64,000 nt of DNA from Adhaeribacter terrigena. GTDB lineage: Bacteria; Bacteroidota; Bacteroidia; Cytophagales; Hymenobacteraceae. The stretch covers positions 62,001-126,000 of the forward strand of contig NZ_JAEHFX010000007.1 of NCBI RefSeq assembly GCF_016623615.1, read 5' to 3'. Below, one piece after another: positions 2,627-63,806 of the stretch. Below the pieces are notes generated by a model, which did not search any database, was not told where the DNA came from, and saw nothing but the letters and a program-made list of their open reading frames with translations. The first letter of the stretch is position 1, and every line of letters begins with the position of its first letter. A program made the translations under genes and the position numbers.

Positions 2627-2668
2627 AGTTTTTCAGGGCGAAACGATAGCGTTTTCAGGTCAAAAACT
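2627..2668. repeat. 42-bp A/T-tract element, complete copy
   Basis: A reference copy with both arms: AGTTTTTCAGG, core GAAACGATAGCGTTTT, then CAGGTCAAAAACT. Exactly 42 nt and nearly palindromic. It sits between the divergent protease and fabG genes. Confidence 0.85.
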
Positions 2669-9408: not shown

Positions 9409-9450
9409 AAAAAATATTTTAAAAATGGTATGTTTCCGGCTTCAAAAAGT
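9409..9450. repeat. 42-bp A/T-tract element
   Basis: Core AAAAATGGTATGTTTCC followed by GGCTTCAAAAAGT; the left arm is degenerate AT-rich. It lies between divergent genes. Confidence 0.6.
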
Positions 9451-10349: not shown

Positions 10350-10432
10350 AAAACTGCCTTGTAACTTTTCGGGCGAAATGGAGTTTGATGCAGGTAAGCT
10401 ATTGCTTCCTTTTAAACTTATTTTCAAAAACT

Positions 10433-11128
10433 ATGAAACCACTTTTTTGCTTCAAAACCATAGCCTTTTCCGCCGCGGTGGTATTTTGTTTAAGCAGCTG
10501 CGAACGCACCACCCGCACCGAAACCAACACCGAAGCCACCGACCGCGATACGGTTACCGTTAGCCGCACCGAAACCACTACCAAAACCAAAGCCGACGAC
10601 GAGGTGCGCGATTTTCAAGACTGGGTAAACGATAAAACCAACCGGGCCGATAGTAATGCCAAAGAAAAATGGCCGGAAGTAAAAGAAGATTTCAAAACCC
10701 GCAGTGCGCAGCTTGATGCTAAAATGGACAGCTTTTCTGCTGATACGCGCCGCGAATACGAAGCAGCCAAAGCCCGTTACCAGGCCTGGGAAAACCGCCG
10801 CGACACCCGCACCAGCCGCCCGCTCGATAATGCCCATCTCTCCAGCTGGCGCAACACTTTGCTCGGAAATTTCGGCAATTTAAAAACCGTAACGGCAACC
10901 AACGTTAAAGAAGTTTACCTCACGTTTATGGGAGCCGTTCGCGCCAAAAAAGCCAACTGGACGCAGGAAGACTGGGATTACGTGGACCAGGTTTACGGAG
11001 AACTGAACCAGCGCAAACGCGAGATCGACAATGCCATTTCTACCACCGATGCTGTAAAGATCAAAACCCTGCAGGCCGAATATTTAACCCTGGAGGCCTC
11101 GGCCGATGCCCAGGATGTAACCCGGTAA
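10433..11128 (+). CDS. Lipoprotein with helical C-terminal region
   Basis: 231 aa. Signal peptide MKPLFCFKTIAFSAAV ends in a lipobox LSSC. The next 30 residues are Thr/Arg/Asp-rich linker. The rest is strongly helical and charged (DFQDWVNDKTNRADSNAKEK, SAQLDAKMDSFSADTRREYE, WTQEDWDYVDQVYGELNQRK), suggesting helical bundles. No known family. ATG at 10433 is chosen over the upstream non-ATG start because it begins the signal peptide. Part of the signal peptide is encoded by a 42-bp element copy (10441-10482). Confidence 0.78.
   Translation: MKPLFCFKTIAFSAAVVFCLSSCERTTRTETNTEATDRDTVTVSRTETTTKTKADDEVRDFQDWVNDKTNRADSNAKEKWPEVKEDFKTRSAQLDAKMDSFSADTRREYEAAKARYQAWENRRDTRTSRPLDNAHLSSWRNTLLGNFGNLKTVTATNVKEVYLTFMGAVRAKKANWTQEDWDYVDQVYGELNQRKREIDNAISTTDAVKIKTLQAEYLTLEASADAQDVTR
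10441..10482. repeat. 42-bp element encoding part of a lipoprotein signal peptide
   Basis: ACTTTTTTGCTTC then AAAACCATAGCCTTTTCC, read in frame as LFCFKTIAFSAA in the signal peptide of the 10433 gene. Confidence 0.6.
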
Positions 11129-12632: not shown

Positions 12633-12674
12633 GATTTTGCCGCCAAAAACGGTATCTTTCCGGCCTGAAAAACC
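12633..12674. repeat. 42-bp A/T-tract element
   Basis: GATTTTGCCGCC then AAAAACGGTATCTTTCC, then GGCCTGAAAAACC. The centre TATCTTT also resembles a -7 promoter box for the GH3 gene 30 nt downstream. Confidence 0.7.
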
Positions 12675-14855: not shown

Positions 14856-14896
14856 TTTTTTAACCGGAAAACGCTATGGTACAGGCCTTAAAAAGT
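14854..14896. repeat. 42-bp element overlapping a stop codon
   Basis: AGTTTTTTAACCGG then AAAACGCTATGGTAC, then AGGCCTTAAAAAGT; both arms present. Its first two bases belong to the TAG stop of the upstream gene. Confidence 0.8.
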
Positions 14897-15512: not shown

Positions 15513-18008
15513 TTAGAACTCGATACGGTAATTTAAAACCGGTATCAGGCCCGCCTGCGTTGCCATTTCCACGGTGCGCGTGTAGGGGTCGTAATACTGG
15601 CGGTACATGTTCAGGCGGTTGCTTACATTCTGAATATCCAGCGACACGATATACGAAGCTTTGGGTTTGTTTTTGCGGTAACTCACGCGCAGGTCCGTCC
15701 GGAAATAAGCGTCAGCCTGCCGGGCGAAGGTTTCATTTTCTACGTACACTTCCGTACCTTCCTGCTGCGAGCGTTCCGGGTCAATTGGCGTATAGCGGTT
15801 GCCACCGGCCCACACCAGCTTCATATTCAGCCCGATTACGTTGTTTCGGTCTTTGCCCACTTTAAATTCCTTGCCGCCCAGCACATTTAAAATATAATTA
15901 CCGTTGAAACGCGTGTTGCGTTCTATGCCATCTAAAGCAGTGTATTTGGAATTATAAAGCGAGGTAGTGACCAGGAAATAATAATTATTGGTGAAGAATT
16001 TTTCGAGGCTTAGCTCCAGCCCGTAGTTGCGGCCCGTGCCTTTGCTTACCAGGCTGTCAGTAGTGAGGCCTTCTTCGGTGTTCAGGGCCGCGTACGCAGA
16101 TTTCGGATCGGCGGCTATTGCTACGTCATACAGATCCTGGTAATAAGTTTCGGCTTTCAGGCGCAGGTCTTCGCGCAGCATCAGGTCGTAGGAAAGTACC
16201 AGGTGGCGGGCTTTGGCGAGTTCCAGGTTTTTGTTGGCCTGGCTGTAGGTGCCATCGGCCAGCGGTTGCCGGGCAAAGTATGCGGCCATGCTTTCGTGGC
16301 GGCTGTGGATGCCGAAACCCAGCCCGATAGCCTGCGCACTGCTCAGGTTCCAGCGCAAACCGGCCCGCGGTTCTACTGAAGTGCTGCCGTTCAAACCCAG
16401 CCGCACCAGGTGCAGGCCACTGTTAAGCGTCAGGTTTTCCAGCAGACGGTACTTCCATTGGCCGTAAGCCTGGGTTAAACCGGTATTGCCGGCGTTTTCT
16501 ACGTAGGTCTGCATTATTTTTTCGGCGTTGCGGCCTTCGCTCATCATATCGAAACCAAGCTGGCTGTAAATGGCACCCAAACGAACGGTATGGCGGGCGC
16601 TTAATTTATGATTGTAGAGCACTGAAGCCCGGGCAGCCGTTTTCTGATAATTTTCGTGATAAACCAGGTACGGTTGCAGGTTGGGCATGAGCGAATCGTA
16701 CTGAAAAGCGCTTTTATTGGCCGAAAGCGATACAATGGTTTCCAGGTATGCGTGCGGATTCAGGAAATAGGTATTACTCACGCCCACGGTACCCATGCCG
16801 CCTTTATAAACATTGTTGAAGGCATCGCTGGCTTCCTGCCATTTGTTCACGTCTTTTTCAGCTTCCTGGGCATCGCGGCTTAAACCGCCCAAGCCCCAAA
16901 CGGTAAACGTGCCGGCTTTTTGGGTAGGCAGGTGCAGCTTAAAGGAAAAATCCTGAAAATCAGGGGCATTATCGCCGGCAATTTTAAAGCCCAGGTTGTT
17001 GAGAATGGCCAAGGTAGAATAACGGTAATTCGCCAGGTAAGAGCCTTTATAGCCTTTTTTGAACGGGCCTTCAGCGGCAAAATCTACACCCAGAACCCCG
17101 GCCTGAAAGGCGTATTCGCGTTTTTCGTTGTTGCCTTTGCGCAGTTTCATATCAAAAATCCCGCTCAGCGCATTGCCGTATTCGGCCGGGAAAGCGCCGG
17201 TATAAAAATCGGAGTTATCGATCATGTTCACGCTCAGCATGCTGATCGGGCCGCCGGAGGCGCCTTCCTGGGCAAAATGGGTCGGGTTTGGTACTTCAAT
17301 GCCCTCGATACGCCATAGAACGCCTCTCGGCGAATTACCCCGCACCACAATTTCATTGCTCATATCGTCGGTAGCGGCTACGCCGGCAAAACTCTGAGCG
17401 GCGCGGGCCGGGTCGTTCATAGCGGCAGCGTAATGCCTGGTTTCTTCTACGGAAATACTGCGGGCGCTCAAAGTAGCCATTTCGTTTTGCGGACGGCCTT
17501 TTTCCTGCTGCGCCTTTATCACGACTTCCTGCATTAACCGAATATTTTCGGCCAAACCAACCGTGAGCACCAGTTCTTTGCCCGAACCCAGCAGCAATTC
17601 CGGGAGGGTTTGTTCTTCGTAGCCCAGGTAATTTATCTTTAAAGTATGGCGGCCTACCGGCACTTTTTCGATCTTGAAATTGCCGTCGGCATCGGTTACG
17701 CTGCCTTTAACCGGATTGGTACTGATCACCGCTACCGACACCCCGATGAGCGGCATCTGCGATTCCCGGTCCAGCACTTTGCCGCGAATGGTTTGGGTCA
17801 GGTTCTGGGCACTGCTTAAAAAGGGCAATCCGAAAAAAAACAAGAAAAAAGCTGCCAACAGCTTCGTTTGCACTTTTTTAGCCCGAAACCCTAGCGTTTT
17901 TCCGGATTTATTTTCGAACTGGCGCTGGTATTCCTGCTGGGCTTTTTTCCAACCGGCGTTATAGTCCTGCACGTTTATTGGGGTGGTTGTTTTGCTTGGC
18001 TGATTCAT
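15513..18008 (-). CDS. TonB-dependent outer-membrane receptor
   Basis: 831 aa. After an N-terminal extension of about 48 residues comes a hydrophobic signal (LLAAFFLFFFGLPFLSSAQ), then a carboxypeptidase-regulatory-like domain (IRGKVLDRESQMPLIGVSVA), a plug (about 175-290; AATDDMSNEIVVRGNSPRG) and a beta-barrel ending in VLNYRIEF with terminal Phe. It imports a ligand using TonB energy. It is last in a sigma/FecR/STN locus on one strand, so ligand-responsive control is likely. The N-terminal extension (MNQPSKTTTPINVQDYNAG) is unusual; part of it is read through a 42-bp element. An alternative GTG at 17873 would give a standard signal peptide. Confidence 0.88.
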   Translation of the reverse strand: MNQPSKTTTPINVQDYNAGWKKAQQEYQRQFENKSGKTLGFRAKKVQTKLLAAFFLFFFGLPFLSSAQNLTQTIRGKVLDRESQMPLIGVSVAVISTNPVKGSVTDADGNFKIEKVPVGRHTLKINYLGYEEQTLPELLLGSGKELVLTVGLAENIRLMQEVVIKAQQEKGRPQNEMATLSARSISVEETRHYAAAMNDPARAAQSFAGVAATDDMSNEIVVRGNSPRGVLWRIEGIEVPNPTHFAQEGASGGPISMLSVNMIDNSDFYTGAFPAEYGNALSGIFDMKLRKGNNEKREYAFQAGVLGVDFAAEGPFKKGYKGSYLANYRYSTLAILNNLGFKIAGDNAPDFQDFSFKLHLPTQKAGTFTVWGLGGLSRDAQEAEKDVNKWQEASDAFNNVYKGGMGTVGVSNTYFLNPHAYLETIVSLSANKSAFQYDSLMPNLQPYLVYHENYQKTAARASVLYNHKLSARHTVRLGAIYSQLGFDMMSEGRNAEKIMQTYVENAGNTGLTQAYGQWKYRLLENLTLNSGLHLVRLGLNGSTSVEPRAGLRWNLSSAQAIGLGFGIHSRHESMAAYFARQPLADGTYSQANKNLELAKARHLVLSYDLMLREDLRLKAETYYQDLYDVAIAADPKSAYAALNTEEGLTTDSLVSKGTGRNYGLELSLEKFFTNNYYFLVTTSLYNSKYTALDGIERNTRFNGNYILNVLGGKEFKVGKDRNNVIGLNMKLVWAGGNRYTPIDPERSQQEGTEVYVENETFARQADAYFRTDLRVSYRKNKPKASYIVSLDIQNVSNRLNMYRQYYDPYTRTVEMATQAGLIPVLNYRIEF
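17872..17913. repeat. 42-bp element inside the TonB receptor N-terminus
   Basis: ACTTTTTTAGCCC then GAAACCCTAGCGTTTTTCC. It is read on the minus strand as GKTLGFRAKK, just before the signal peptide. Confidence 0.7.
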
Positions 18009-18016: not shown

Positions 18017-18058
18017 AGTTTTTTTAGGCAAAAGGATAGCGTTTACCGCTGAAAAGCG
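18017..18058. repeat. 42-bp A/T-tract element
   Basis: AGTTTTTTTAGGC then AAAAGGATAGCGTTT, then ACCGCTGAAAAGCG, immediately upstream of the TonB receptor start. Confidence 0.7.
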
Positions 18059-18149: not shown

Positions 18150-19943
18150 TTAAAAACGCACGCCGGCATTAAAACCGATCCACATTTTTACATTGGTGCC
18201 GCCGGCGGAAGTGTGATCGTAAAAGGTTTTGGTTACAAGTTGCGAACCCACTTCCTGCAATTCCGGCTCCTGGTAGCGCGACACGAAAACGTTGTACACC
18301 GGTCCGCCAAAAAGGGCCAGGCGATTGGTTATTTGTAATGTAGCCAACAGGCGGAATTTATTGAGCAGATTCAGCTCATCTGCTTCTAAAATGCCTTTCG
18401 GAAATTTTTCAAAGCTTTCTTCAATTACATTGTAAGCCACCAGGTCGGTATTGATGCGGAAGTGTTTGGCAACCGGCCATTCAGCACCCAAACCAATGGA
18501 GTAAGCCCAGCGCTTTTTATCGTTCAGTTCGGCGCTTAAACCGGCCAGCGTGTAGAAACGCTGCACCCCGATCTTGTAAGTAAAGTTGGCGTCAAAATCA
18601 TCGGCTATATAAAATTCTGCGCGTTTGTAACCGCCTTTTTTAACGAAGTTGAACAACCCGATCGGTACGCCGGAAACGCTGTCGGCAATGTTAATGACCG
18701 AGATCTGGGTGCCCTGCACTACTTTGGCTACGTTCAGAAAACCCGAAGCCTGCAAACCGGAAACGGTATCGGCGATGTTGAGAAAGCCAGCCAATTGGGC
18801 GCCTTCTACGTTTTTAGCCAGGTTCATGTACCCTGCCCCCTGCACGCCGTGCACGTTTTTGGAGATGTTGAGAAAACCGGCAAACTGCGCACCTTTCATG
18901 TGGCCGTCGGCAATGTTCATGTAGCCGGCAAACTGCGCGCCTTTTACGTTGCCGTTGGCCAGGTTAAAAAAACCGGCAAACTGTCCGCCGTTCAGGGTGT
19001 AGCTTTCGTTGCGTTCTTCGGCCAAATAATACAGTTCAGGGCTGTTGCGCGTAATGTTAAAGAAGCCGGCATACTGCAAACCGCTCACATAGCTTTTCTC
19101 CACGTTCCCGAAACCCGAGATTTCCAGCCCTTCCAGACCTGCAGCCGTGCCTAAAATGGCGTGCGCCGAAATATTATTCACGTATTTGTTGGCCTGGGTG
19201 CCATTGGTGCTGAGGGGCGGCACAAAACCAACGTGATAGTTGCGGGTTAAAACGGTATCGGAATTTTCGGCGGCTTTTTCGTTTTGCAAACGCAGGGCGG
19301 CCAATTTGTCGAGCCAGGTTACTTTTTTGCCTTCCATTTTAAAGACCGTGAGGGTGTCGTACACATTTTCGTCGGCGGGCAGAGCAGTTTTAGCGGCCGG
19401 AAGCATAGCGTTTTGCGGGGCTTCTTCGGCAACTCTGGCTATGGCAGGCGTTTCGCTTTTCGCTTTCGGATGCTCTTTGGTTTCCGCGGCTTCCGGCTTT
19501 GGGGTTTCTGCGGCAGCTATATTTTTGGCGGGGGATTCCGGTTTGGTTTCGGCGGGTTTTATGGTGGTTTTGGCTACCGTTTTAGGGGCGGATACCTGCT
19601 GAAAAGTGGTGGTTTTGGGTTTGTTTTTCGGAAAGCCTTTTTTAATAATGATCTGCCCGTTACTTTGCTTGTAACCCAGATCGGTTTTCTCCAGCAGCAC
19701 GTCCAGCACTTCCGAAAAAGATTTGTTCTTGATTTCGGCGGTGAAGCGGGTTTTAGCCGGCAGCTCGTTGTTGAGGTACGAAAACCGGTAACCGTATTTT
19801 TTCTGAAGCTGCTGCAAAACCTGCGGCAACGTGGCGTTCTCTACCTTTATAGATATTTTTGTGTGCAGGTTTTGCGCAAAAAGGGTATTGATGGTAAAGC
19901 TCAGGCAAAGTATTCCCGTAATGAAGAATTTTAGCGTTCTCAT
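18150..19943 (-). CDS. STN-domain protein with surface repeats and C-terminal barrel
   Basis: 597 aa. Signal peptide ending NTLFAQ; STN domain at about residues 28-100 (ISIKVENATLPQVLQQLQKK, FSEVLDVLLEKTDLGY), normally the periplasmic signalling domain of TonB receptors. A Pro/Glu/Ala/Lys-rich linker follows (110-190). Then about nine repeats of 15-17 residues with the pattern VxGxQxAGFxNIA (residues about 255-420), like LA_2272-type surface repeats, and a C-terminal part that looks like an outer-membrane barrel, ending VRF. It lies between FecR and the TonB receptor, so it may pass a signal between the receptor and FecR or be a structural surface protein; this is inference. Confidence 0.75.
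   Translation of the reverse strand: MRTLKFFITGILCLSFTINTLFAQNLHTKISIKVENATLPQVLQQLQKKYGYRFSYLNNELPAKTRFTAEIKNKSFSEVLDVLLEKTDLGYKQSNGQIIIKKGFPKNKPKTTTFQQVSAPKTVAKTTIKPAETKPESPAKNIAAAETPKPEAAETKEHPKAKSETPAIARVAEEAPQNAMLPAAKTALPADENVYDTLTVFKMEGKKVTWLDKLAALRLQNEKAAENSDTVLTRNYHVGFVPPLSTNGTQANKYVNNISAHAILGTAAGLEGLEISGFGNVEKSYVSGLQYAGFFNITRNSPELYYLAEERNESYTLNGGQFAGFFNLANGNVKGAQFAGYMNIADGHMKGAQFAGFLNISKNVHGVQGAGYMNLAKNVEGAQLAGFLNIADTVSGLQASGFLNVAKVVQGTQISVINIADSVSGVPIGLFNFVKKGGYKRAEFYIADDFDANFTYKIGVQRFYTLAGLSAELNDKKRWAYSIGLGAEWPVAKHFRINTDLVAYNVIEESFEKFPKGILEADELNLLNKFRLLATLQITNRLALFGGPVYNVFVSRYQEPELQEVGSQLVTKTFYDHTSAGGTNVKMWIGFNAGVRF
19385..19426. repeat. Degenerate 42-bp element in the STN gene linker
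   Basis: AGTTTTAGCGGCCGG then AAGCATAGCGTTTTGC. It is read as QNAMLPAAKTAL in the low-complexity linker. Confidence 0.4.
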
Positions 19944-20149: not shown

Positions 20150-21175
20150 TTAATTACATCCTTTACCGTTTACCAGGTATTTTTCGCCTTGCTTCGTAAT
20201 AGTTAAATTCCCCGTCATGGTTAGAATATCGAGCACCTCCTGCAGTTCCGGTTCCTGGAAGGATGTGGTAAAGCGGCAGTTATTCAAAGCCGGGTTCTGA
20301 ATTTCAATTTCAATGTTAAAGTAGGTTTCCAGTTCGGCGGTTATTTGTTCCAGGCGCTGGTTATTGAAGTTCAGCTGTTTGGTTTTCCAGGCCTGGAAGT
20401 TTGGTTCGGCTATTACTTTTTTGGCTGGTTTTGCTACCGTTTTTTCGCCAATTACGCCCTCCTGGCCGGGGGTTAAGAAAACAGCATCGTCGGTTTCGGT
20501 TCTGGCAAAGGCCACTTTACCGGTTACTACCTGCACTTTCACTTCTTTTTTATCGTAAGCCCGCAGGTTGAAACTCGTACCGATCACTTCGGTTTTGGTG
20601 CCCTGCGCAAAAATGGTGAAGCGTTTTCCTTCGGCTTTGGCTACTTCAAAAAAAGCTTCGCCGGTTAGTTTTACGGTGCGGTTCTCTTTCTGAAAATTCT
20701 CGGGGTAAGCAAACGTACTGTTCTGGTTTAAACTCACTTTACTGCCATCGGCTAGCATAATGGTTTTGGTTTCGTTCGCAGCGGTAGTTACCTCGGTCCA
20801 GTGGTGGCTAGTGGCACGGGTTATAAAATAAATGCCGACTAAAATGAACAAGGCAAGGGAAGCGGCAATGCCGTAAACCGCGCTCAGAGGCATTTTCCGG
20901 ACCACCGGCGCTTTCGGTTTGGCCGTTTCCGGCATTTCGCCCGTTCTGGTTTGCACCTTGAGTTGGAAACGCTGCCAGCCTTTTTCTACATCAGGTTCGT
21001 AACCGGTTTCGGGCAAAGCAATGCCGGCCCAGACTTTTTTGGTCTGTTCAGCTACCGTTTCTGCTTCCGGATCCTGTTCCCGTTTTACACGGAGCCAGGT
21101 TTTATCTGCTTCTGCGGCATTTCCGCTTACTTCTCTGGCTAATTTTTCCCAGAAATCTTGCCCGTTTTTTTCCAT
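20150..21175 (-). CDS. FecR-type anti-sigma factor
   Basis: 341 aa. A cytoplasmic helical N-terminal part (about 1-95) that would hold the sigma factor, one transmembrane helix (AVYGIAASLALFILVGIYFI), then the periplasmic FecR domain (ETKTIMLADGSKVSLNQNS, TGEAFFEVAK, GTSFNLRAY) and a C-terminal STN-like DUF4974 domain (LNFNNQRLEQITAELETYF). It regulates the ECF sigma factor encoded at 22863, relaying a signal from a TonB-linked receptor. Family length is normal. Confidence 0.93.
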   Translation of the reverse strand: MEKNGQDFWEKLAREVSGNAAEADKTWLRVKREQDPEAETVAEQTKKVWAGIALPETGYEPDVEKGWQRFQLKVQTRTGEMPETAKPKAPVVRKMPLSAVYGIAASLALFILVGIYFITRATSHHWTEVTTAANETKTIMLADGSKVSLNQNSTFAYPENFQKENRTVKLTGEAFFEVAKAEGKRFTIFAQGTKTEVIGTSFNLRAYDKKEVKVQVVTGKVAFARTETDDAVFLTPGQEGVIGEKTVAKPAKKVIAEPNFQAWKTKQLNFNNQRLEQITAELETYFNIEIEIQNPALNNCRFTTSFQEPELQEVLDILTMTGNLTITKQGEKYLVNGKGCN

Positions 21176-22264: not shown

Positions 22265-22303
22265 AGTTTATAACCCTGAAAGCATACCGTTTTCAAAGTT
22301 AGC
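22265..22303. repeat. 42-bp element at the head of structured repeat A
   Basis: AGTTTATAACCCTG then AAAGCATACCGTTTTCAAAG. The same element precedes the other two structured repeats (at 35725 and 63765), so it seems to be part of the composite. Confidence 0.65.
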
Positions 22304-23473: not shown

Positions 23474-23507
23474 GCTTATTTCTGCCAATAGCACCGGAGT
23501 TTTTCCG

Positions 23508-23548
23508 CCGCCAACCCTACCGTTTTAGTTAAACCCACAGCCGGAAAG
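23508..23548. repeat. 42-bp A/T-tract element
   Basis: AGTTTTTCCGCCGC then CAACCCTACCGTTTT, then AGTTAAACC. It lies upstream of the sigma gene, between divergent genes. Confidence 0.6.
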
Positions 23549-23666: not shown

Positions 23667-24233
23667 ATGAAAAAGATAACATTCGCCCTGACTGCACTAG
23701 CCCTTTTTGCGCTGGCATCCTGTTCCCAAACCCAGAACCCCGAAACGGCCTCGGCTGCTGAAACCCATTTGGAAGAAGCCGGCGTGCCTTCCGGAGGACA
23801 ATCGGCCGTAGCCGATGATGAATCGCAGAAGAATGTGGTGCAGACTGCCGTTGGTTCTCCCGACCATACCACACTGGTAACGGCCGTTAAAACCGCCGGC
23901 CTGGTAGATGTGCTTTCCAACGCCGGACCGTTTACCGTTTTTGCGCCCACCAATGCGGCTTTCGATAAACTGCCGGCTGGTACGGTAGAAGCCCTTTTAA
24001 AAGAAGAAAAACGCGGCGACCTGAAAAACATTCTGCAATACCACGTGTACGTGGGTTCACTGCGCACAGAAAGTTTTGAAGACGGCCAGAGTCTGGGCCA
24101 GGTAAACGGCGGCCGAGTAACCATGGGCGTCAAAGACGGCAAAGTCACCGTAAACGGGGCTACTATCCTGGCTTCCATTCCAACTTCTAACGGCGTGATT
24201 CACGTTATAGACCAGGTTTTACTGCCCAAATAG
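23667..24233 (+). CDS. Fasciclin (FAS1) domain lipoprotein
   Basis: 188 aa. Lipobox LASC at residues 16-19. A single FAS1 domain fills residues about 55-187: HTTLVTAVKTAGLVDVLSN, GPFTVFAPTNAAFDKLP, ILQYHVYVG and VIHVIDQVLLP. FAS1 domains mediate adhesion or matrix contacts; surface-anchored here. Independent gene with its own terminator. The last codons and stop overlap a 42-bp element. Confidence 0.93.
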   Translation: MKKITFALTALALFALASCSQTQNPETASAAETHLEEAGVPSGGQSAVADDESQKNVVQTAVGSPDHTTLVTAVKTAGLVDVLSNAGPFTVFAPTNAAFDKLPAGTVEALLKEEKRGDLKNILQYHVYVGSLRTESFEDGQSLGQVNGGRVTMGVKDGKVTVNGATILASIPTSNGVIHVIDQVLLPK

Positions 24234-24257
24234 ATAGCGTTTTCCATTACATAAAAG
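24215..24257. repeat. 42-bp element overlapping the fasciclin gene stop
   Basis: GGTTTTACTGCCC then AAATAGATAGCGTTTTCC, then ATTACATAAAAG. The TAG at 24231-24233 is the fasciclin stop. Confidence 0.5.
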
Positions 24258-24829: not shown

Positions 24830-24861
24830 ACGGAAACGGTAGGGTTTTGGGGTGGAAAAGT
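24830..24861. repeat. 42-bp element, right part
   Basis: GGAAACGGTAGGGTTTTGG then GGTGGAAAAGT; the left arm is lost. It sits upstream of the DUF4126 gene. Confidence 0.6.
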
Positions 24862-27999: not shown

Positions 28000-28036
28000 A
28001 GTTTTTATACTGAAAACGATACCGTTTTTGATAAAC
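28000..28036. repeat. 42-bp A/T-tract element
   Basis: AGTTTTTATACTG then AAAACGATACCGTTTTTG, 5 nt upstream of the 28042 start; it would lie in the leader if the TAACTTTG at 27988 is the promoter. Confidence 0.7.
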
Positions 28037-28587: not shown

Positions 28588-28619
28588 AAACCGCTGCCTC
28601 AACAGGCAGCGGTTTTTTG
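28588..28619 (+). terminator. Terminator whose T-tract opens a 42-bp element
   Basis: AAACCGCTGCCT pairs with AGGCAGCGGTTT (loop CAAC), then TTTTTT. The T-run is also the first arm of the element at 28611-28652. Confidence 0.85.
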
Positions 28620-28652
28620 CTTTAAAAGGATAGCGTTTTTCGGCTGGCAACC
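28611..28652. repeat. 42-bp element starting in a terminator T-run
   Basis: GGTTTTTTGCTTT then AAAAGGATAGCGTTTTTC, then GGCTGGCAACC. Confidence 0.7.
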
Positions 28653-30218: not shown

Positions 30219-30249
30219 AAAAAACGGTATCTTTAAAACCCAAAAAACT
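30219..30249. repeat. 42-bp element, right part
   Basis: GAAAAAACGGTATCTTTAAA then ACCCAAAAAACT; the TATCTTT centre is close to a -7 promoter box for the next gene. Confidence 0.6.
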
Positions 30250-31165: not shown

Positions 31166-31197
31166 AAAAAAACGTTAGGGTTTCGGGCCGTAAAAGT
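31166..31197. repeat. 42-bp element, right part
   Basis: AAAAAAAACGTTAGGGTTTC then GGGCCGTAAAAGT, 8 nt upstream of the dNK start. Confidence 0.6.
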
Positions 31198-33992: not shown

Positions 33993-34493
33993 ATGGTTGC
34001 AATCACCTTAACGCCGGCTTCGGAAATAGATATTCCGGAGCTGCGCGCCCTGGCTTTAACTACCTGGGAACCGACCTATAAAAATATACTGAGCCGGGAG
34101 CAACTGCTTTTTATGCAGGAGGAAATTTACAACGAAACTGCGTTGGCAAAACAAATGCAGCACGGCCAGCAATTCTATTTTATTCAGCAGGAAGCATGTT
34201 CTGTGGGTTTTCTTTCACTCACGTTAATGAACTCAACAGAGCAACGCTACAAACTGAATAAGCTTTATTTATTGCCGGAAATGCAGGGCAAAGGAATTGG
34301 AAAAGCTGCGCTCGATGCTGCCGCAGAAACGGTACAGAAAATGGGCGGAAAAGTGCTGGAACTGAACGTAAACAAATTCAATCCGGCCAAATTTTTTTAC
34401 GAACGCTGCGGCTTTTCCGTGATCCGGGAAGAAGATATTCCGATCGGCAATTACTGGATGAATGATTTTGTGATGGAGAAAAAGCTGGCCTAA
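33993..34493 (+). CDS. GNAT family N-acetyltransferase
   Basis: 166 aa. Acetyl-CoA pyrophosphate loop LLPEMQGKGIGKAAL (Q/RxxGxG/A), preceded by LNKLYL and followed by LNVNKFNPAKFFYERCGF, the standard GNAT motif B. Substrate unknown. It overlaps the convergent DUF2062 gene by 4 nt at the stops and may be co-transcribed with the CDGSH gene. Confidence 0.9.
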   Translation: MVAITLTPASEIDIPELRALALTTWEPTYKNILSREQLLFMQEEIYNETALAKQMQHGQQFYFIQQEACSVGFLSLTLMNSTEQRYKLNKLYLLPEMQGKGIGKAALDAAAETVQKMGGKVLELNVNKFNPAKFFYERCGFSVIREEDIPIGNYWMNDFVMEKKLA

Positions 34494-35139: not shown

Positions 35140-35181
35140 ACTTTTTCGTGTAAAAAGTATTGCGTTTTAGATCAGATTTTC
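35140..35181. repeat. 42-bp A/T-tract element
   Basis: ACTTTTTCGTG then TAAAAAGTATTGCGTTTTAG, then ATCAGATTTT. Confidence 0.6.
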
Positions 35182-35724: not shown

Positions 35725-35755
35725 TAAAAACGCTATACTTTCAAGCTTAAAAACT
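35725..35755. repeat. 42-bp element at the head of structured repeat B
   Basis: AAAAACGCTATACTTTC then AAGCTTAAAAACTC. Confidence 0.7.
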
Positions 35756-35816: not shown

Positions 35817-35848
35817 AAAAAATGCTATGCTTTCAAGCATAAAAACTC
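35817..35848. repeat. 42-bp element, right part
   Basis: AAAAAATGCTATGCTTTC then AAGCATAAAAACT; GCATGC-type symmetry between ATGCTTTCAAGCAT. Confidence 0.65.
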
Positions 35849-35927: not shown

Positions 35928-37493
35928 ATGGGTTTATTCACGAAAATTACGTACACAGACGTTTCTTACGCCACCCGCGCCAGTCAGCCGCTTACGCTTT
36001 TCCAGCTCCAGAATAAGATCCGCGAAGCGCTGGAAGAAGCTTTTCCGGCCGGTTACTGGGTGGTTGCCGAAATTTCGGAAGTACGAACGCATGCCAGCGG
36101 CCATTGCTATTTAACCCTTACCGAAAAAGACAACCGTAATCAGAATAATTTAATCGCCCAGGCCAAAGGCACGATCTGGCGCAACAATTACCGCGAAATC
36201 TCTACTTATTTCGAAAGCCAGACCGGCCACAAATTGCGCTCCGGACTCAAAATTCTCTTGAATGCCAGCGTGCGTTTTCACGAACTGTACGGCTTCAACC
36301 TCGATATTCTCGACATCGACCCGAACTATACCATTGGCGATCTGGCGCGGCAGAAGCAGGAAACGCTCCGGAAACTGCAAGCCAACGGCCTTTTAGAAAA
36401 AAACAAACAGCGCTTCCTGCCCGAAGTGCCGCAACGCGTGGCCGTAATTTCTTCGGCTACCGCCGCCGGATTCGAAGATTTCATGAAGCAGCTGGCGCAG
36501 AATCCATACGGCTACCATTTTCAAACCACTTTGTTCGAAGCAAGCATGCAGGGCAACGAAGCGGCGGCTTCGGTAAGGCAGGCGTTGCGGTTAATCGAAA
36601 TGCAGCAAAGCCAGTTCGATGCGGTGATTTTAATTCGTGGTGGTGGCGCGCAAACCGATCTTTTGTGTTTCGACGATTATGAACTGGCGGCGACAATCGG
36701 CAATTTTTCGTTGCCGGTACTTACCGGAATCGGCCACGAACGCGACGAAACGGTGGCCGATATTGTAGCCCATACCAAACTGAAAACCCCTACTGCTGTC
36801 GCTGCTTTTTTAATTGATTGCTGCCTGACTTTTGAAGCGCATTTAGATACCGTTTTCGAAGACCTGAAAGACCTGGCAGCCGTGATTGTGAAACGCAAAA
36901 ACGCGCAGCTCGAAAACCAGGTTCTGCAATTATCGCAGCAAACCAACCGTTATTTAAAGCAGCAGGATTCCAGGCTCGAAATGCTGGTGCGCAGTTTATC
37001 GGTAAAGCCGAAAAAATACCTGACCGAACAGGATAAACTCATCAGCTGCCACGAACTGAACCTGGTAAATTTCACGCGAAAAAAGCTCGAAAATTCGGAA
37101 GTAAAACTTTTGCAGCAAAGCCACAAACTCGAAAATATTAGCCGCCAAACGGTAGCACAAAAGCAGCAAAAACTCGAGCATCTAATTTACTGCATCAGCA
37201 CTTCCGCCAAAAACAATATCAGCAATAAACAGCTTCTTTTTCAACCCTTTACCAATAAAATTAAAGCCGAAACGCAGCAGTTTTTGCGCGAAAAAACCTA
37301 CCGTTTGCAGCTCACCGAAATGGAAGTAAAAAACCGCGATCCGGAGCAAATGCTGCTGCGCGGCTACACCTTAACTTACGTGCACGGCCAGCTGGTGCGC
37401 AGCGCCAAAGACTTGAAACCCGGCGACCTGATCCAGACGCATTTTGCCGACGGAGGCGCCGAAAGTACCATTACCAACCTGACAATTTTATGA
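35928..37493 (+). CDS. xseA: Exodeoxyribonuclease VII large subunit
   Basis: 521 aa. N-terminal OB fold for DNA binding (FPAGYWVVAEISEVRTHASG), then the catalytic domain with VAVISSATAAGFEDF, LIRGGGAQTDLLCFDDYELA and TGIGHERDETVADIVAHTKL, followed by long coiled-coil helices (residues 290-460). It degrades single-stranded DNA together with XseB in mismatch repair and recombination. It overlaps xseB by 4 nt (ATGA), so the two are translationally coupled. Confidence 0.96.
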   Translation: MGLFTKITYTDVSYATRASQPLTLFQLQNKIREALEEAFPAGYWVVAEISEVRTHASGHCYLTLTEKDNRNQNNLIAQAKGTIWRNNYREISTYFESQTGHKLRSGLKILLNASVRFHELYGFNLDILDIDPNYTIGDLARQKQETLRKLQANGLLEKNKQRFLPEVPQRVAVISSATAAGFEDFMKQLAQNPYGYHFQTTLFEASMQGNEAAASVRQALRLIEMQQSQFDAVILIRGGGAQTDLLCFDDYELAATIGNFSLPVLTGIGHERDETVADIVAHTKLKTPTAVAAFLIDCCLTFEAHLDTVFEDLKDLAAVIVKRKNAQLENQVLQLSQQTNRYLKQQDSRLEMLVRSLSVKPKKYLTEQDKLISCHELNLVNFTRKKLENSEVKLLQQSHKLENISRQTVAQKQQKLEHLIYCISTSAKNNISNKQLLFQPFTNKIKAETQQFLREKTYRLQLTEMEVKNRDPEQMLLRGYTLTYVHGQLVRSAKDLKPGDLIQTHFADGGAESTITNLTIL

Positions 37494-37744: not shown

Positions 37745-37762
37745 AAAACGATAGCAATTTAC
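37743..37762. repeat. Partial 42-bp element at the xseB stop
   Basis: AAAAAACGATAGCAATTTAC begins within the TAA stop and runs to the next ATG. Confidence 0.5.
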
Positions 37763-38449
37763 ATGGAAAAACTCTTATTGCTGCACGGCGCGCTGGGTTG
37801 CCAGACCGGTTTCAACGCACTGAAAGCCGCTTTATCGGAACATTACGAGGTTTATTGCCTCGATTTTTACGGCCACGGTTCGGAAGCATTTTCTACGGAA
37901 CCGTTTAAAATTGAAGGCTTTTCTGAACAGGTTTTTAACTGGCTCGAAGAAAATAAGATCGAGGCTATTTCCATTTTTGGCTACAGCATGGGCGGTTACG
38001 TGGCGTTGCATTTAGCGGCCAGGTATCCGGAAAAAGTAAAGCGCATTTTCACGCTCGCTACCAAATTCGACTGGACCGAAGCTTCGGCCGAAAAAGAAAC
38101 CAAACTGCTCGATCCGGATAAGATTGAAGCCAAGGTGCCGATGTTTGCCAGTGAACTTTCCGAACGCCACGGCGCGCACCTCTGGAAAAACGTGCTCCGC
38201 AAAACCGCCGAAATGATGCTTGGTTTAGGCCGGCAAAAAGCACTTTCCGAGGAAGAACTTGCGCAAATTGAAATTCCGGTTTTAGTTAGCGTCGGCGACC
38301 GCGACCCGATGGTTAGCCTGGAAGAAACCGTGGCGGTTAGCAAACAACTGAAAAATGCCGCCCTGTTGGTTTTACCCAATACGGTGCATCCGCTGGAGAA
38401 AATTCCGGTGGTGAGGTTGGTTTTTGAGTGCCGGCAGTTTTTTGGGTGA
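37763..38449 (+). CDS. Alpha/beta-fold hydrolase
   Basis: 228 aa. Oxyanion region LLLHGALGC, nucleophile elbow FGYSMGGYVAL (Ser), VSVGDRDPMV (Asp) and TVHPLEK (His) give a full catalytic triad. Substrate unknown; family includes esterases and lactonases. It starts 18 nt after xseB and is likely in the same operon. Its last codons (CRQFFG, stop) are read from the left arm of a 42-bp element. Confidence 0.9.
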   Translation: MEKLLLLHGALGCQTGFNALKAALSEHYEVYCLDFYGHGSEAFSTEPFKIEGFSEQVFNWLEENKIEAISIFGYSMGGYVALHLAARYPEKVKRIFTLATKFDWTEASAEKETKLLDPDKIEAKVPMFASELSERHGAHLWKNVLRKTAEMMLGLGRQKALSEEELAQIEIPVLVSVGDRDPMVSLEETVAVSKQLKNAALLVLPNTVHPLEKIPVVRLVFECRQFFG

Positions 38450-38470
38450 TTTGGGTAGCGTTTTTGGGTA
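38436..38470. repeat. 42-bp element overlapping a stop codon
   Basis: AGTTTTTTGGGTGATTTGG then GTAGCGTTTTTGGG. The TGA at 38447-38449 is the stop of the hydrolase. Confidence 0.6.
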
Positions 38471-39355: not shown

Positions 39356-39388
39356 AAAAAAGAGGAACCAGCTTGGCACCTCTTTTTT
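39356..39388. terminator. Bidirectional terminator
   Basis: AAAAAAGAGG pairs with CCTCTTTTTT around AACCAGCTTGGCA, between convergent TPR and M13 genes. Confidence 0.8.
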
Positions 39389-39420
39389 GCTTTAAAACGA
39401 TACCGTTTTCTGGTTACCAG
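39379..39420. repeat. 42-bp element joining a terminator to a stop codon
   Basis: CCTCTTTTTTGCTTT then AAAACGATACCGTTTTC. Its left arm is the terminator T-tract and its right end covers the stop of the M13 gene (39414-39416). Confidence 0.7.
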
Positions 39421-41623: not shown

Positions 41624-41665
41624 ACTTTTTAAGCCTGAAACCATACCATTTTTAAATTTGCAGCT
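41624..41665. repeat. 42-bp A/T-tract element
   Basis: ACTTTTTAAGCCTG then AAACCATACCATTTTT, then AAATTTGCAG; upstream of the M13 gene. Confidence 0.65.
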
Positions 41666-41680: not shown

Positions 41681-41710
41681 AAAAACCAGCCCGGTTAAGA
41701 GCTGGTTTTT
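41681..41710 (-). terminator. Terminator of the second TonB receptor
   Basis: AAAAACCAGC (41681-41690) pairs with GCTGGTTTTT (41701-41710). Confidence 0.8.
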
Positions 41711-41745
41711 GAGGAAAAAAGGATAGCGTTCTTGACTTATAAACT
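41704..41745. repeat. 42-bp element joining a terminator to a stop codon
   Basis: GGTTTTTGAGG then AAAAAAGGATAGCGTTC, then TTGACTTATAAACT; the right end covers the stop of the TonB receptor gene (41737-41739). Confidence 0.7.
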
Positions 41746-45319: not shown

Positions 45320-45354
45320 TTTTTAAAAACGCTAGGGATTTAGCCCTCAAAAGT
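45320..45354. repeat. 42-bp A/T-tract element in the efflux operon leader
   Basis: TTTTTAAAAACGCTAGGGATT then TAGCCCTCAAAAGT, 40 nt before the adaptor start. Confidence 0.55.
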
Positions 45355-46521: not shown

Positions 46522-46563
46522 ACTTTTAAGCTCGAAAACGGTAGCGTTTTGGAGGTAAAAAGT
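46522..46563. repeat. 42-bp A/T-tract element, complete reference copy
   Basis: ACTTTTAAGCTCG, core AAAACGGTAGCGTTTT, then GGAGGTAAAAAGT; 42 nt with tract centres near 4.5, 15.5, 27.5 and 38. It lies inside the efflux operon between adaptor and pump genes. Confidence 0.85.
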
Positions 46564-51324: not shown

Positions 51325-51360
51325 GGTTGGAAAAACGGTAGGTTTTCCGGACTAAAAAGT
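51319..51360. repeat. 42-bp element sharing the terminator T-tract
   Basis: CTTTTTGGTTGG, AAAAACGGTAGGTTTT, CCGGACTAAAAAGT; both arms present. Confidence 0.82.
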
Positions 51361-51400: not shown

Positions 51401-51437
51401 AATTTTATAAAACGCTATACTTTTCAGGCTCAAAACT
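51401..51437. repeat. 42-bp A/T-tract element
   Basis: AATTTTATAAAACGCTATAC then TTTTCAGGCTCAAAACT; 40 nt from the previous copy. Confidence 0.72.
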
Positions 51438-53281: not shown

Positions 53282-54097
53282 TTACTTCTGCTGGCATTGC
53301 GTACATATATACGTAGCGCGGCCTCCAACAACCATTTTTGTGATCTCAGTTTTGCACCGCGGGCAGTTTTTATGCGCATCTTTTTCGGCGTGCGGCGAGT
53401 CATCCCATTCGCGGGAATGAATGAGAAAAGTAGCCGGCATTTGGCGGTAAACGGCCTCTTCTTCGATAGAGATCTGCAGTACGTTTTGCGTGGCTTCCAG
53501 CAGGTTTTGAATTTCCGGATCGGTTAGTTCGGCGGCAATTATTTCCGGGTGCAGTTTTGCCTGGAACAGAATTTCATCTACGAGCCAGTTGCCAATTCCG
53601 GCCAGGATTTTCTGATCGAGCAGCGCAGATTTAAGCGCAGTTTTTCTTTTCCGCAGGCTTTTTGCCAGTTCAGCGCCGGAAATTTCCAATGCATCGGGCC
53701 CGAGTTTTTTAGCTGTTTTATATACCGTTTCGCTTTCCCATAAACCGATCCGGCCAAACTTACGCGAATCTGCAAAAGCCAGTTTAAAGCCGCTGTCGAA
53801 GAAAAAAGTAGCCCGTTCAAAACGCGGCGCATCTTCCGGAATACGGTAATAATGTAGATCGCCGGTCATGCCGAAATGCAGGCTCAGCACCTTGCCGTTG
53901 TCGAGCGTTACGAGTAAATGTTTCCCGATCCGGGTGGTTTTTACCATTTGGCGCCCCATTATTTGCTCCCGGAAATCTTCGGCCGGCATGGTGATCTGGC
54001 GCTTTGCATCTACAGCCGTAAAACCGGTAATTTTCTGGTGCATGCTGGTTGCTTCCAGGTATTTGCGGAGCGTTTCTACTTCGGGTAATTCGGGCAT
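53282..54097 (-). CDS. mutM: Formamidopyrimidine-DNA glycosylase
   Basis: 271 aa. MPELPEVETLRKYL supplies the catalytic Pro2/Glu3; TRIGKHLLVTL and HFGMTGDL are standard. The helix-two-turn-helix (ALLDQKILAGIGNWLVDEIL) and a C-terminal zinc finger (CPRCKTEI then YICTQCQ) complete it. It removes oxidised guanine and cleaves the abasic site in base-excision repair. Start set by the required N-terminal Pro. Confidence 0.95.
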   Translation of the reverse strand: MPELPEVETLRKYLEATSMHQKITGFTAVDAKRQITMPAEDFREQIMGRQMVKTTRIGKHLLVTLDNGKVLSLHFGMTGDLHYYRIPEDAPRFERATFFFDSGFKLAFADSRKFGRIGLWESETVYKTAKKLGPDALEISGAELAKSLRKRKTALKSALLDQKILAGIGNWLVDEILFQAKLHPEIIAAELTDPEIQNLLEATQNVLQISIEEEAVYRQMPATFLIHSREWDDSPHAEKDAHKNCPRCKTEITKMVVGGRATYICTQCQQK

Positions 54098-54342: not shown

Positions 54343-54384
54343 AGTTTTTCAGGCCAAAAGCATACCGTTTTCTTTTCGAAAATG
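54343..54384. repeat. 42-bp A/T-tract element
   Basis: AGTTTTTCAGGCC, AAAAGCATACCGTTTTC, TTTTCGAAAATG; 42 nt, 44 nt from the palindrome. Confidence 0.75.
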
Positions 54385-56199: not shown

Positions 56200-56239
56200 A
56201 ATTTTAAGTAAAAACGGTACAGTTTTATAAACAAAAAGT
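56199..56239. repeat. 42-bp element between a stop and a terminator
   Basis: It begins at the last base of the TGA stop: AAATTTTAAGTAAAAACGGT, ACAGTTTTATAAAC, AAAAAGT. Its right arm is also the 5' arm of the terminator at 56233. Confidence 0.72.
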
Positions 56240-56264
56240 CACTGCCGCCGGCAGTGACTTTTTT
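56233..56264. terminator. Bidirectional terminator flanked by two 42-bp elements
   Basis: AAAAAGTCACTGCC pairs with GGCAGTGACTTTTT. The outer AAAAAGT and ACTTTTT are the arms of the flanking element copies. Confidence 0.85.
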
Positions 56265-56298
56265 ATGCGCAAAGCATAGCGTTTTTAACCGTTACAAT
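56257..56298. repeat. 42-bp element, inverted to the 56199 copy
   Basis: ACTTTTTTATGCGC then AAAGCATAGCGTTTTT, then AACCG; lies before the stop of the 56306 gene. Confidence 0.75.
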
Positions 56299-57513: not shown

Positions 57514-57921
57514 ATGCAGTCAACCCTAGTAGTTTGTTTCGAGAATGAGTGCTGCACCCTGGAGCATGATACGGACAACCAATGCCTGGTCATGACCTGG
57601 AAAGGTTTGCTGCCCAGCAAAGGCTTCCGGGAGGTTCACCAGCACGCGCTGCACCTGATGCGCAAACATAAAATCAGCAAACTACTATGCGATGCCCGCC
57701 GCATGAAAACCATTGGTAGCGAAGACGCCGCCTGGATCGAAAATTTCTGGATTCCCAGCGCGGTGGTAGCCGGTTACCGGTATTGCGCCATTGTAGAATC
57801 AGATTATATTTTCAATCAGATCTCCATTAACAACATCACCGAAAAAATAGACCCGGAAAGCATAACGATCGGGCATTTTAAAACCCGGGAAGAAGCGTTG
57901 CACTGGCTCCGGCATAGCTGA
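57514..57921 (+). CDS. STAS-like protein, paralogue of 14912 gene
   Basis: 135 aa. LVMTWKGLLPSKGFREVHQH, ISKLLCDARRMKTIGSEDAA, YRYCAIVESDYIFNQISINN correspond block by block to the 14912 protein. Role unknown; a regulatory STAS/SpoIIAA-like fold is inferred. It contains a CCT(L) with three Cys near the start. Its stop codon is the first base set of a 42-bp element. Confidence 0.7.
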   Translation: MQSTLVVCFENECCTLEHDTDNQCLVMTWKGLLPSKGFREVHQHALHLMRKHKISKLLCDARRMKTIGSEDAAWIENFWIPSAVVAGYRYCAIVESDYIFNQISINNITEKIDPESITIGHFKTREEALHWLRHS

Positions 57922-57962
57922 GTTTTTCAACCCGAAACCCTACCGTTTCTGCTATTTGGTGC
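57921..57962. repeat. 42-bp element filling a convergent gap
   Basis: AGTTTTTCAACCC, GAAACCCTACCGTTTCTG, CTATTTGGT. It starts on the last base of the left gene stop (57919-57921) and covers the stop of the opposite gene (57952-57954). Confidence 0.78.
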
Positions 57963-58173
57963 GCAGGTTATTGGCATTGCTGCCGTCGAGCTTGCGCGTA
58001 TCTTCTTCTTTTTCGGCCGCCACATTTCCTTCCGCCACCGTGCCTTCGGGCTTCAGGTCCAGTTCGTCGGTTTTAATGTCTTCCAGCGGTTCAGGGTTAT
58101 CGTCAGGCAAACGTTTGCTTTCGTCGGCGTTGGTTATCTGGTCTTTGTCGTCGGGATTATTTAAGGCGGCCAT
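57952..58173 (-). CDS. Small acidic hydrophilic protein
   Basis: 73 aa, almost all charged or polar (MAALNNPDDKDQITNADESK, LEDIKTDELDLKPEGTVAEG), no hydrophobic core and no Cys. Probably disordered, like stress hydrophilins. Similar in type to the next gene (58231). The gene is short but the codon use and its neat boundaries with the 42-bp elements support it. Confidence 0.6.
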   Translation of the reverse strand: MAALNNPDDKDQITNADESKRLPDDNPEPLEDIKTDELDLKPEGTVAEGNVAAEKEEDTRKLDGSNANNLRTK

Positions 58174-58188
58174 GGCTTTCAGAATTTT

Positions 58189-58230
58189 AGTTTTTTGGTT
58201 GAAAAGGATAGCGTTTTTTCCAGCGCTTAT
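58189..58230. repeat. 42-bp element filling an intergenic gap
   Basis: AGTTTTTTGGTTG, AAAAGGATAGCGTTTTTT, CCAGCGCTTAT. It ends one base before the stop of the 58231 gene. Confidence 0.75.
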
Positions 58231-58482
58231 TTAGTCGTTCTCGTTATTGGCGTCGCCGTCGTTGGTATCGCGGTCTTCCAGGCTTTTACCGGGGTTGGCG
58301 GCGCGGGTTCCGTCAAAATTTTCGTCGGAAGTTGGCGAACCGCGGCGGTGCGACGTCGGGCTCAGATCAGGTGGCGTGGCTTCGCCGGTGGATCCTTCGT
58401 TGGCTAAACGAATGGCTTCCTGGCGCTGGTATTCGGCATCCTGTTCTTCAGGACTTAAAGGTCTTTGGTTTTGAGCATTCAT
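58231..58482 (-). CDS. Small hydrophilic protein, probably disordered
   Basis: 83 aa: NAQNQRPLSPEEQDAEYQRQ, then EGSTGEATPPDLSPTSHRRG and a tail rich in Asp/Asn (LEDRDTNDGDANNEND). No fold or motif recognised. On the same strand as and upstream of the 57952 gene, separated by one 42-bp element, so the two may be one transcript. Confidence 0.6.
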   Translation of the reverse strand: MNAQNQRPLSPEEQDAEYQRQEAIRLANEGSTGEATPPDLSPTSHRRGSPTSDENFDGTRAANPGKSLEDRDTNDGDANNEND

Positions 58483-59128: not shown

Positions 59129-59165
59129 AAAACTGCCCTGCAAACCACGGGGCAGTTTTTGTTTT
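59129..59165 (+). terminator. Terminator sharing its T-tract with a 42-bp element
   Basis: AAAACTGCCC (59129-59138) pairs with GGGCAGTTTT (59150-59159). Confidence 0.8.
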
Positions 59166-59195
59166 AAAAACCTACCGTTTTTGCCCGTATTAATT
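59154..59195. repeat. 42-bp A/T-tract element
   Basis: AGTTTTTGTTTT, AAAAACCTACCGTTTTTG, CCCGTATTAATT. Confidence 0.72.
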
Positions 59196-59931: not shown

Positions 59932-59973
59932 AGTTTTTCAGGGTGAAACCATACCATTTTTTTAAGCAATTTT
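59932..59973. repeat. 42-bp A/T-tract element
   Basis: AGTTTTTCAGGGTG, AAACCATACCATTTTTTT, AAGCAATTTT, between two inverted 8-bp arrays. Confidence 0.72.
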
Positions 59974-60943: not shown

Positions 60944-60978
60944 GCTTTTAAAACGGTAGGGTTTCGGACTGAAAAAGT
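60937..60978. repeat. 42-bp element sharing the cvfB terminator T-tract
   Basis: GTTTTTTGCTTTT, AAAACGGTAGGGTTTC, GGACTGAAAAAGT; both arms present. Confidence 0.82.
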
Positions 60979-61762: not shown

Positions 61763-61804
61763 ACTTTTCAGCTGTAAAACCCTACCGTTTTTGCGAAATT
61801 CATT
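61763..61804. repeat. 42-bp A/T-tract element
   Basis: ACTTTTCAGCTG, TAAAACCCTACCGTTTTT, GCGAAATTCATT. Confidence 0.72.
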
Positions 61805-61966: not shown

Positions 61967-62008
61967 AGTTTTTTATCCTCAAACCCTACCGTTTTCTGCT
62001 CTACAAAA
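61967..62008. repeat. 42-bp A/T-tract element
   Basis: AGTTTTTTATCCTC, AAACCCTACCGTTTTC, TGCTCTACAAAA. Confidence 0.72.
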
Positions 62009-62996: not shown

Positions 62997-63040
62997 AGTT
63001 TTCAGACCCAAAAAGATACCTTTTTTACCTACCCGAAAAA
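62997..63040. repeat. 42-bp A/T-tract element
   Basis: AGTTTTCAGACCC, AAAAAGATACCTTTTTTA, CCTACCCGAAAAA, 39 nt upstream of the barrel gene. Confidence 0.68.
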
Positions 63041-63764: not shown

Positions 63765-63806
63765 CGTTTTCAGGTCAGAAAGGATACCTTTTTTATAGCG
63801 AGCTTC
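63765..63806. repeat. 42-bp element at the head of structured repeat C
   Basis: CGTTTTCAGGTCAG, AAAGGATACCTTTTTT, ATAGCGAGCTTC; the flank ATAGCG is shared with copy B. Confidence 0.68.

Follow-up and report, generated by a model that had tools for sequence, protein, structure and literature searches.

The window, as we term the whole 64,000-nucleotide stretch of Adhaeribacter terrigena DNA analyzed here (Bacteroidota; assembly GCF_016623615.1, contig NZ_JAEHFX010000007.1, positions 62,001 to 126,000), carries 57 copies of a short directional motif that recurs throughout the genome of this organism. By analogy with the uptake signal sequences (USSs) of the Pasteurellaceae and the DNA uptake sequences (DUSs) of the Neisseriaceae, we propose that the motif is probably a signal for DNA uptake in this member of the Bacteroidota. 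It displays most of the sequence-level properties of a USS, and we stop short of counting it among the established members of that class. An original prediction, made from the window alone, had described these sequences as 42-bp elements fitted between stop codons at the 3' ends of genes; we find that this fit to stop codons is a by-product of a genome-wide DNA word.

A directional 29-bp motif

The motif family was recovered by a repeat search of the window. Its profiles were built from 464 kb of the genome, namely, the window and 400 kb taken from contigs C11 and C17, and a copy is defined as a match scoring above 14 on a position weight matrix (PWM) trained on the same 464-kb sample. The conserved unit is a directional 29-bp sequence, A[CG]TTTTT-N6-[A or T tract]-SMTA[CG]CGTTTT, in which A[CG]TTTTT and [AC]TA[CG]CGTTTT are separated by, in order, six weakly conserved bases, a stretch of A (or T) residues, and two positions that are mostly G or C. 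The core is TA[CG]CGTTTT, or AAAACG[CG]TA on the reverse strand, with two AT tracts upstream of it.

The two sites on which the original prediction centered do hold copies, both on the forward strand: one at 57921..57949 (PWM 34.6), whose first A doubles as the final base of the TGA stop at 57919-57921 and which faces an opposite stop (CTA on the forward strand) at 57952-57954, and one at 58189..58217 (PWM 36.7), 13 bp before the minus-strand stop at 58231-58233. The predicted copies thus exist, although each is built on a directional unit of 29 bp, with the 42-bp form in the minority. When the 51 strictest copies were profiled, the right-hand 13 bp of that form had no clear consensus, and positions 57950-57962 do not match a motif arm. 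A motif score above 5 on the other strand is found nearby in 58 of the 403 copies in the sample, 44 of these at the palindromic offset; these copies, which score on both strands because the core is nearly palindromic, are the 42-bp forms. A 42-bp palindrome was accordingly rejected as the unit, since most copies lack a right-arm consensus.

The motif is more frequent than chance would give. Before overlaps were merged, 427 matches scored above 14, whereas an equally sized third-order Markov control yielded 4; the 403 nonoverlapping copies amount to 0.87 per kb, or about 3,850 per genome when scaled from the 464-kb sample. In a check independent of the matrix, the genome as a whole contains 2225 matches to the exact pattern ASTTTTN14TASCGTTT, almost evenly split between the strands (1116 forward, 1109 reverse), and none to the backward control; a shorter core pattern gave 366 matches against 2. 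Cores at the right distance from the TTTTT tract are perfect in 172 cases and singly mismatched in 85, compared with means of 0.4 and 3.8, respectively, at nine wrong distances. The information content of 29.1 bits far exceeds the roughly 11.2 bits that would suffice for finding the sites, an excess that would be more in keeping with a drive than with mere recognition of sites. In the 464 kb, the most overrepresented nine-mer reaches a z score of 48; in two other genera (200 kb each) the top excesses have z scores of 8 and 14 and involve unrelated words.

The motif is also narrowly distributed. A family search of 200 genomes and an order search of 390 genomes together covered 511 distinct genomes, with the genus represented by two. 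The exact pattern matched 158 times in the congener, the second species of the genus, and 0 to 3 times in the 198 further family genomes, as does the backward control. In the order search, in which the congener was not drawn, no genome except A. terrigena exceeded 7 matches, and the backward control reaches 9. Among the 511 order members searched, the motif is therefore exclusive to this genus. The A. terrigena matrix gave 1 and 0 matches in 200 kb each of two other family genera, equal to the reversed-sequence control, and 80 named loci around tex, many of them from distant phyla, gave 4 matches in 1.4 Mb. Among the matches listed from a viral collection, 79 of 80 entries have a single motif match. 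The remaining one, a 19-kb "viral" contig (L231; IMGVR_UViG_3300046665_000281), has 4 copies in the 10.6 kb examined and perhaps derives from a relative of the genus. Among the matches listed for open-licence PMC papers, titles and the starts of abstracts report no such motif in Bacteroidota.

Resemblance to known uptake signals and readout from the DNA duplex

Motif-tagged DNA uptake has been described, in the parts of the literature drawn on here, for the Pasteurellaceae and Neisseriaceae. In the USS of Haemophilus influenzae and other Pasteurellaceae, a 9-bp core is flanked on one side by two AT-rich segments, about one helical turn apart, and the motif shares this layout. According to the sections of PMC1626085 that treat it, the USS occurs about once per kb, prefers noncoding DNA, has more perfect than singly mismatched cores, has segments spaced by helical turns, and originates by mutation; relatives differ in dialect, and the signal may extend to 32 nucleotides (PMC12616744). 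The A. terrigena motif parallels these properties in its density of about 1 copy per kb, its very strong consensus, its lack of strand bias, its excess of perfect over singly mismatched cores, its origin by point mutation, its preference for noncoding DNA combined with many copies in genes, and its dialects between the two species. The passages of PMC2346458 used here likewise describe no general orientation bias of the USS; within genes, they report, one orientation is the commoner and copies tend to lie toward the gene ends.

The core itself is distinct, matching neither the Hin nor the Apl type and being unrelated to AAGTGCGGT or ACAAGCGGT. The motif further differs from the USS in its occurrence in Bacteroidota, its stronger avoidance of genes, its irregular spacing, the absence of detected pilus genes in A. 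terrigena, and the orientation of close pairs, which is mostly the same here, whereas USS pairs are described as inverted. The DUS, whose receptor is ComP, resembles the motif in copy density, and a pilin of the congener matches the Pfam ComP_DUS family; the DUS sequence is nonetheless unrelated, consists of one short uninterrupted word that lacks flanking motifs in the account given in PMC1626085, and stands in contrast to A. terrigena, in which no pilus machine was found. A further parallel comes from Riemerella, which belongs to a different class of Bacteroidota. It prefers its own DNA in natural transformation (PMC7965970), with no motif named in the portions of that paper drawn on here.

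The motif is read as duplex DNA. Across the 403 copies, the middle tract (positions 2-4) is AAA in 257, TTT in 41, mixed A/T in 47, and other in 58, whereas independent positions would give 179 AAA, 2.2 TTT, and 152 mixed tracts. An A-tract on either strand evidently serves, and hence the signal is a property of the duplex. The tracts are centered at about -8, 2.5, and 14.5, that is, 10.5 and 12 bp apart, which would place them on one face of the helix at intervals of about one turn. Such block flips are unaccompanied by pair covariation: of 350 position pairs within the motif, 2 exceed a complementarity z score of 2 and none exceeds 3, and the outlying pair at -22/22 (z score of 4.3) lies outside the motif in the wider stretch.

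Taken as an uptake signal, the motif would be preferred by a cell-surface DNA receptor, ComEC would import one strand of the bound DNA, and DprA and RecA would recombine it into the chromosome. Biased uptake of this kind would drive sequences toward the motif over time wherever proteins, ribosome sites, and promoters allow. Copies would consequently build up mainly between genes and just past stop codons, and some overlapping inverted copies would incidentally form terminator-like hairpins.

Predicted uptake machinery and a nucleoid protein as a possible alternative

Several observations weigh against an uptake signal. ComEC and DprA are present in A. terrigena but also in all 14 genomes tested and thus do not discriminate. 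No PilB/T2SSE match over the cutoff was found in A. terrigena in a search of 39 genomes, nor a PilC/T2SSF match in a search of 14; hence, the type IV pilus machine with a pilin receptor was not recovered there, pilins not having been searched for in this species. Known or predicted DUS and USS receptors are minor pilins (the prediction for the USS is that of PMC12616744, in the part used here). The missing pilus matches may reflect an assembly gap or a recent loss. The motif is the stronger in A. terrigena, yet of the two species pilus genes were found only in the congener, whose own cores at the main spacing comprise 18 perfect against 74 one-mismatch versions. The spacing of copies is no more regular than random (coefficient of variation of intercopy distance, 1.08), departing from the more regular spacing published for the USS and DUS; pairs less than 150 bp apart in the sample are in the same orientation in 61 cases and in opposite orientations in 20; and about one-quarter of the copies lie in genes, below the 47 to 70% given for five Pasteurellaceae in the relevant part of PMC2346458.

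Full-length T2SSE matches over the cutoff were obtained in the congener (G001), G042, and G045, and a partial one in G037, among the 39 genomes; T2SSF was found in the congener alone of the 14. The pilus genes of the congener lie on a 30.4-kb contig with 38.9% G+C (G001:C7:1-30408; L322 and L323), which codes for PilB-, PilC-, secretin-, and prepilin-like proteins. They adjoin very long genes (2182 amino acids and more). One of its pilins matches Pfam ComP_DUS (1e-6; 30.0 bits, with a cutoff of 27.3), has a structurally solved PilA as its closest sequence, and reaches none of the NCBIfam equivalog cutoffs; the ComP_DUS match may therefore be a case of general pilin similarity. The pilus genes of the congener are suggestive of uptake for the genus and awkward for the species of the window.

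Depletion of the motif around integrases is likewise only partial, a further point against uptake: three of the five integrase surroundings were examined, one of 20 kb with 11 copies and two of 60 kb with 42 and 26, so that the support from depletion is weak and post hoc, and the surroundings of comEC and dprA contain 15 and 19 copies in 20 kb. The clearest island, a likely mobile region with integrase, DUF3987, and DUF6371 genes (G000:C21:195169-209000; L195), has 4 copies in 15 kb.

The most serious alternative is that the copies are binding sites of an abundant, genus-specific nucleoid protein reading phased A-tracts and the TA[CG]CG core, with genes avoided through coding constraint. The duplex-level readout with its A-tract block flips, the preference for intergenic DNA, the restriction to one genus, and the failure to find a pilus machine in A. 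terrigena are all compatible with such a protein. Nucleoid proteins are not known to have as many as some 3,850 sites carrying 29 bits each, no search having been aimed at this point. The excess of perfect over one-mismatch cores and the excess of information are, moreover, unusual for intracellular binding sites, as discussed in the part of PMC1626085 consulted, and we consider this explanation unlikely, if far from negligible.

Placement relative to genes and the terminator alternative

Gene boundaries are those of a simple hexamer-based caller rather than of a curated annotation. The motif occurs at 3.2 copies per kb in intergenic DNA against 0.29 per kb in genes, and among intergenic spacers it is densest in convergent ones (3.97 per kb), followed by tandem (3.17) and divergent (2.61) ones. 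The density is 5.3 to 5.5 per kb in spacers of 30 to 150 bp and 1.5 per kb in those longer than 800 bp, a trend that is not fully explained; at least two copies occur slightly more often than under a Poisson distribution in spacers of 100 to 400 bp and less often in long spacers, the density varying with length. Of the 403 copies, 110 are centered in genes, 70 against the gene direction and 40 with it. The 102 copies lying wholly within genes use the three reading frames 64, 30, and 8 times and fall in diverse proteins. Within genes, the density is 0.53 per kb in the last 60 bp, 0.49 in the first 60 bp, and 0.28 in the middle.

The preference for 3' ends suggested by the original prediction stands as an excess at stops, albeit a modest one. 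Between -15 and +10 bp of a stop lie 61 of the 287 noncoding copies, compared with 39.1 +/- 5.1 when copies are shuffled within their own spacers (highest count in 500 rounds, 53). Starts have 20 copies nearby against 28.9 +/- 4.8 in the same shuffles, and of the 183 copies in tandem spacers, 126 are closer to the stop and 57 to the start. Placement between genes is accordingly not uniform in the 464 kb sampled, so that the outcome named originally as refuting the prediction did not arise. The enrichment at stop codons is real, modest, and secondary; the main pattern is the avoidance of genes and starts, that is, of constrained DNA. The placement is better read as a build-up in the least constrained DNA, aided by bases that double as stop codons, since the motif can supply or share such a codon (TAA|AAAACG..., ACGGTAG|G).

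In the window, copies contain the stops at 24231-24233 (24215..24243, forward, PWM 28.2) and 38447-38449 (38436..38464, forward, 27.2), directly follow that at 37742-37744 (37745..37773, reverse, 25.5), and lie 5 bp from those at 39414 (39381..39409, forward, 31.0) and 41737 (41704..41732, forward, 25.9). Others come after the stops at 14853-14855 (14868..14896, reverse, 31.7) and 56199 (56211..56239, reverse, 25.6), the latter with a copy inverted relative to it at 56257..56285 (forward, 33.0). Each of these seven stops, all singled out originally, is contained in, touched by, or at most 13 bp from a copy. Copies also overlap three gene ends, at 10349 (10327..10355, reverse, 27.2), 24233, and 38449. 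Elsewhere in the genome, an 18-kb segment (G000:C11:66825-85122) has one copy between its ends and includes an elongation-factor-like gene. A prophage was considered and rejected, with only 1 of 10 proteins, an elongation factor, matching PHROGs; the segment is probably a compact, conserved housekeeping operon.

If the copies were transcription terminators or transcript insulators at 3' ends, as the original prediction had suggested, the excess near stops and the high density in convergent spacers would be expected, as would the few overlapping inverted copies that fold into near-perfect hairpins followed by T. The three strongest folds are of this kind, for example, that at 6099-6139 in the window, where the copy at 6099..6127 (reverse, PWM 30.5) pairs with an inverted partner after the stop at 6065. 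Insulation may hence apply to a small subset of copies. The RNA folding of the 138 stop-proximal copies, however, has a mean z score of only -0.5, and 17 fall below -2 and 121 do not, so that the stable stem-loop with a U run that marks an intrinsic terminator, or the hairpin that marks a REP/REPIN repeat, is not a general feature of them. There is no base-pair covariation within the motif, divergent spacers, which need no terminators, remain well populated, and the copies centered in genes occur in both orientations. RNA structure as the basis of the motif was thus rejected on folding and covariation, and a terminator function for the family is improbable. No Rfam family reaches its gathering score within the window. 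Two perfect inverted repeats, at 54234-54299 and 7431-7490 (arms of 33 and 29 nucleotides with 0 or 2 nucleotides between them), are possible terminators in their own right.

Origin of coding copies by substitution

Thirty copies could be aligned to a part of the congener genome, 16 of them coding and 14 noncoding. Of the coding ones, 13 align without gaps, and 9 of these 13 places still score above 14 with the congener's own matrix, while 4 do not. The noncoding copies align with gaps in 12 of 14 cases; several of their matches fall on a single congener place and are not orthologous. One case is an xseA-like gene, whose protein is 80% identical in the congener and in which two copies (36828..36856, PWM 25.6, and 37279..37307, 27.9, both forward) occupy identical places in the two species; a weak third copy (37146..37174, reverse, 16.3) is not kept. 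In more distant XseA orthologues, the coding stretch aligns without insertion and the motif is lacking (ten orthologues; L127, L129, and L132 were unused, and L130 and L134 aligned over part only). The gap-free coding alignments and the lack of insertion in xseA indicate that coding copies arise by substitution. The insertion preference inferred originally is not supported, given these alignments and the lack of a detected transposase of the repetitive extragenic palindromic (REP) type.

Further coding copies show the same range of outcomes. One inside a GH3-like gene (14081..14109, forward, PWM 32.5) is kept in the congener without a gap; in a FecR-like gene, one with TTTT as its middle tract (20415..20443, forward, 28.6) has a congener copy with one gap, and another (21033..21061, forward, 23.7) lies in a congener alignment. 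Not kept are, among others, the copies inside genes at 53703..53731 (forward, 22.0) and 34326..34354 (weak; reverse, 18.7) and that at 57921; the copy at 58189 has a related congener copy in a gapped alignment. The congener dialect as a whole is weaker, with 252 sites in 400 kb by its own matrix (the threshold passes about 5 in the control), an information content of 21.6 bits against 29.1, and a second spacing one base shorter.

A REP/REPIN-like repeat or a miniature inverted-repeat transposable element spread by a transposase, which would share with the motif its high number of short, mostly extragenic copies, its partial palindromy (the 58 copies above), and its restriction to one genus, is highly improbable and was rejected, as A. 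terrigena has 0 matches to Y1_Tnp, the domain of the REP-associated tyrosine transposases (RAYTs), against 20 of 22 other genomes searched, coding copies are gap free, 102 copies lie wholly within genes, readout is from the duplex, most stop-proximal copies lack a hairpin, the spacer bases are loosely conserved, and tandem pairs lying close together scarcely exceed random pairs in similarity (2.56 against 2.20 of 7 free positions).

Other copies in the window

Additional copies lie inside genes at 4653..4681 (PWM 28.5), 9648..9676 (weak, 18.3), 17872..17900 (38.7), 19386..19414 (29.4), and 19555..19583 (21.2) on the forward strand and at 4315..4343 (29.5) and 4690..4718 (32.7) on the reverse strand. 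The other forward copies are at 429..457 (28.2), 2516..2544 (33.8), 2627..2655 (36.3), 10441..10469 (31.8), 18017..18045 (27.5), 22265..22293 (32.1), 23498..23526 (30.6), 28000..28028 (35.3), 28611..28639 (33.3), 35140..35168 (25.1), 41624..41652 (36.6), 54343..54371 (38.8), 59153..59181 (weak, 17.2), 59932..59960 (33.9), 61763..61791 (34.1), 61967..61995 (34.8), 62997..63025 (26.8), and 63765..63793 (23.1); the other reverse copies are at 9422..9450 (26.7), 12646..12674 (29.8), 24833..24861 (33.7), 30221..30249 (31.5), 31169..31197 (31.1), 35727..35755 (35.0), 35819..35847 (33.4), 45326..45354 (34.5), 46535..46563 (35.9), 51332..51360 (34.9), 51409..51437 (30.8), and 60950..60978 (38.2).

The window also contains a second, longer interspersed repeat family, at 22323-22830, 35346-35706, 61890-61934, and 63712-63992, with arms of 36 to 124 bp that are about 73 to 86% alike and occur in both orientations.

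Implications

With regard to the predicted uptake signal, we would tentatively go one step further: a code for taking up self-DNA might have arisen in a genus of Bacteroidota separately from those of the Proteobacteria, arriving at the Haemophilus layout by convergence, with the species of the window still under strong drive though a pilus machine of the congener type is gone and with a receptor other than a type IV pilus. We regard this fuller scenario as possible, if on balance doubtful. If true, it would add a third, unrelated case of motif-tagged uptake, in another phylum, implying that such codes evolve repeatedly, and it would suggest that a core with helically phased AT tracts reflects what uptake requires mechanically and not the history of a family. 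The two species, of which apparently only one has pilus genes, would then form a natural pair in which to search for the receptor, and a tag on donor DNA could help in transforming a group for which few genetic tools are available.

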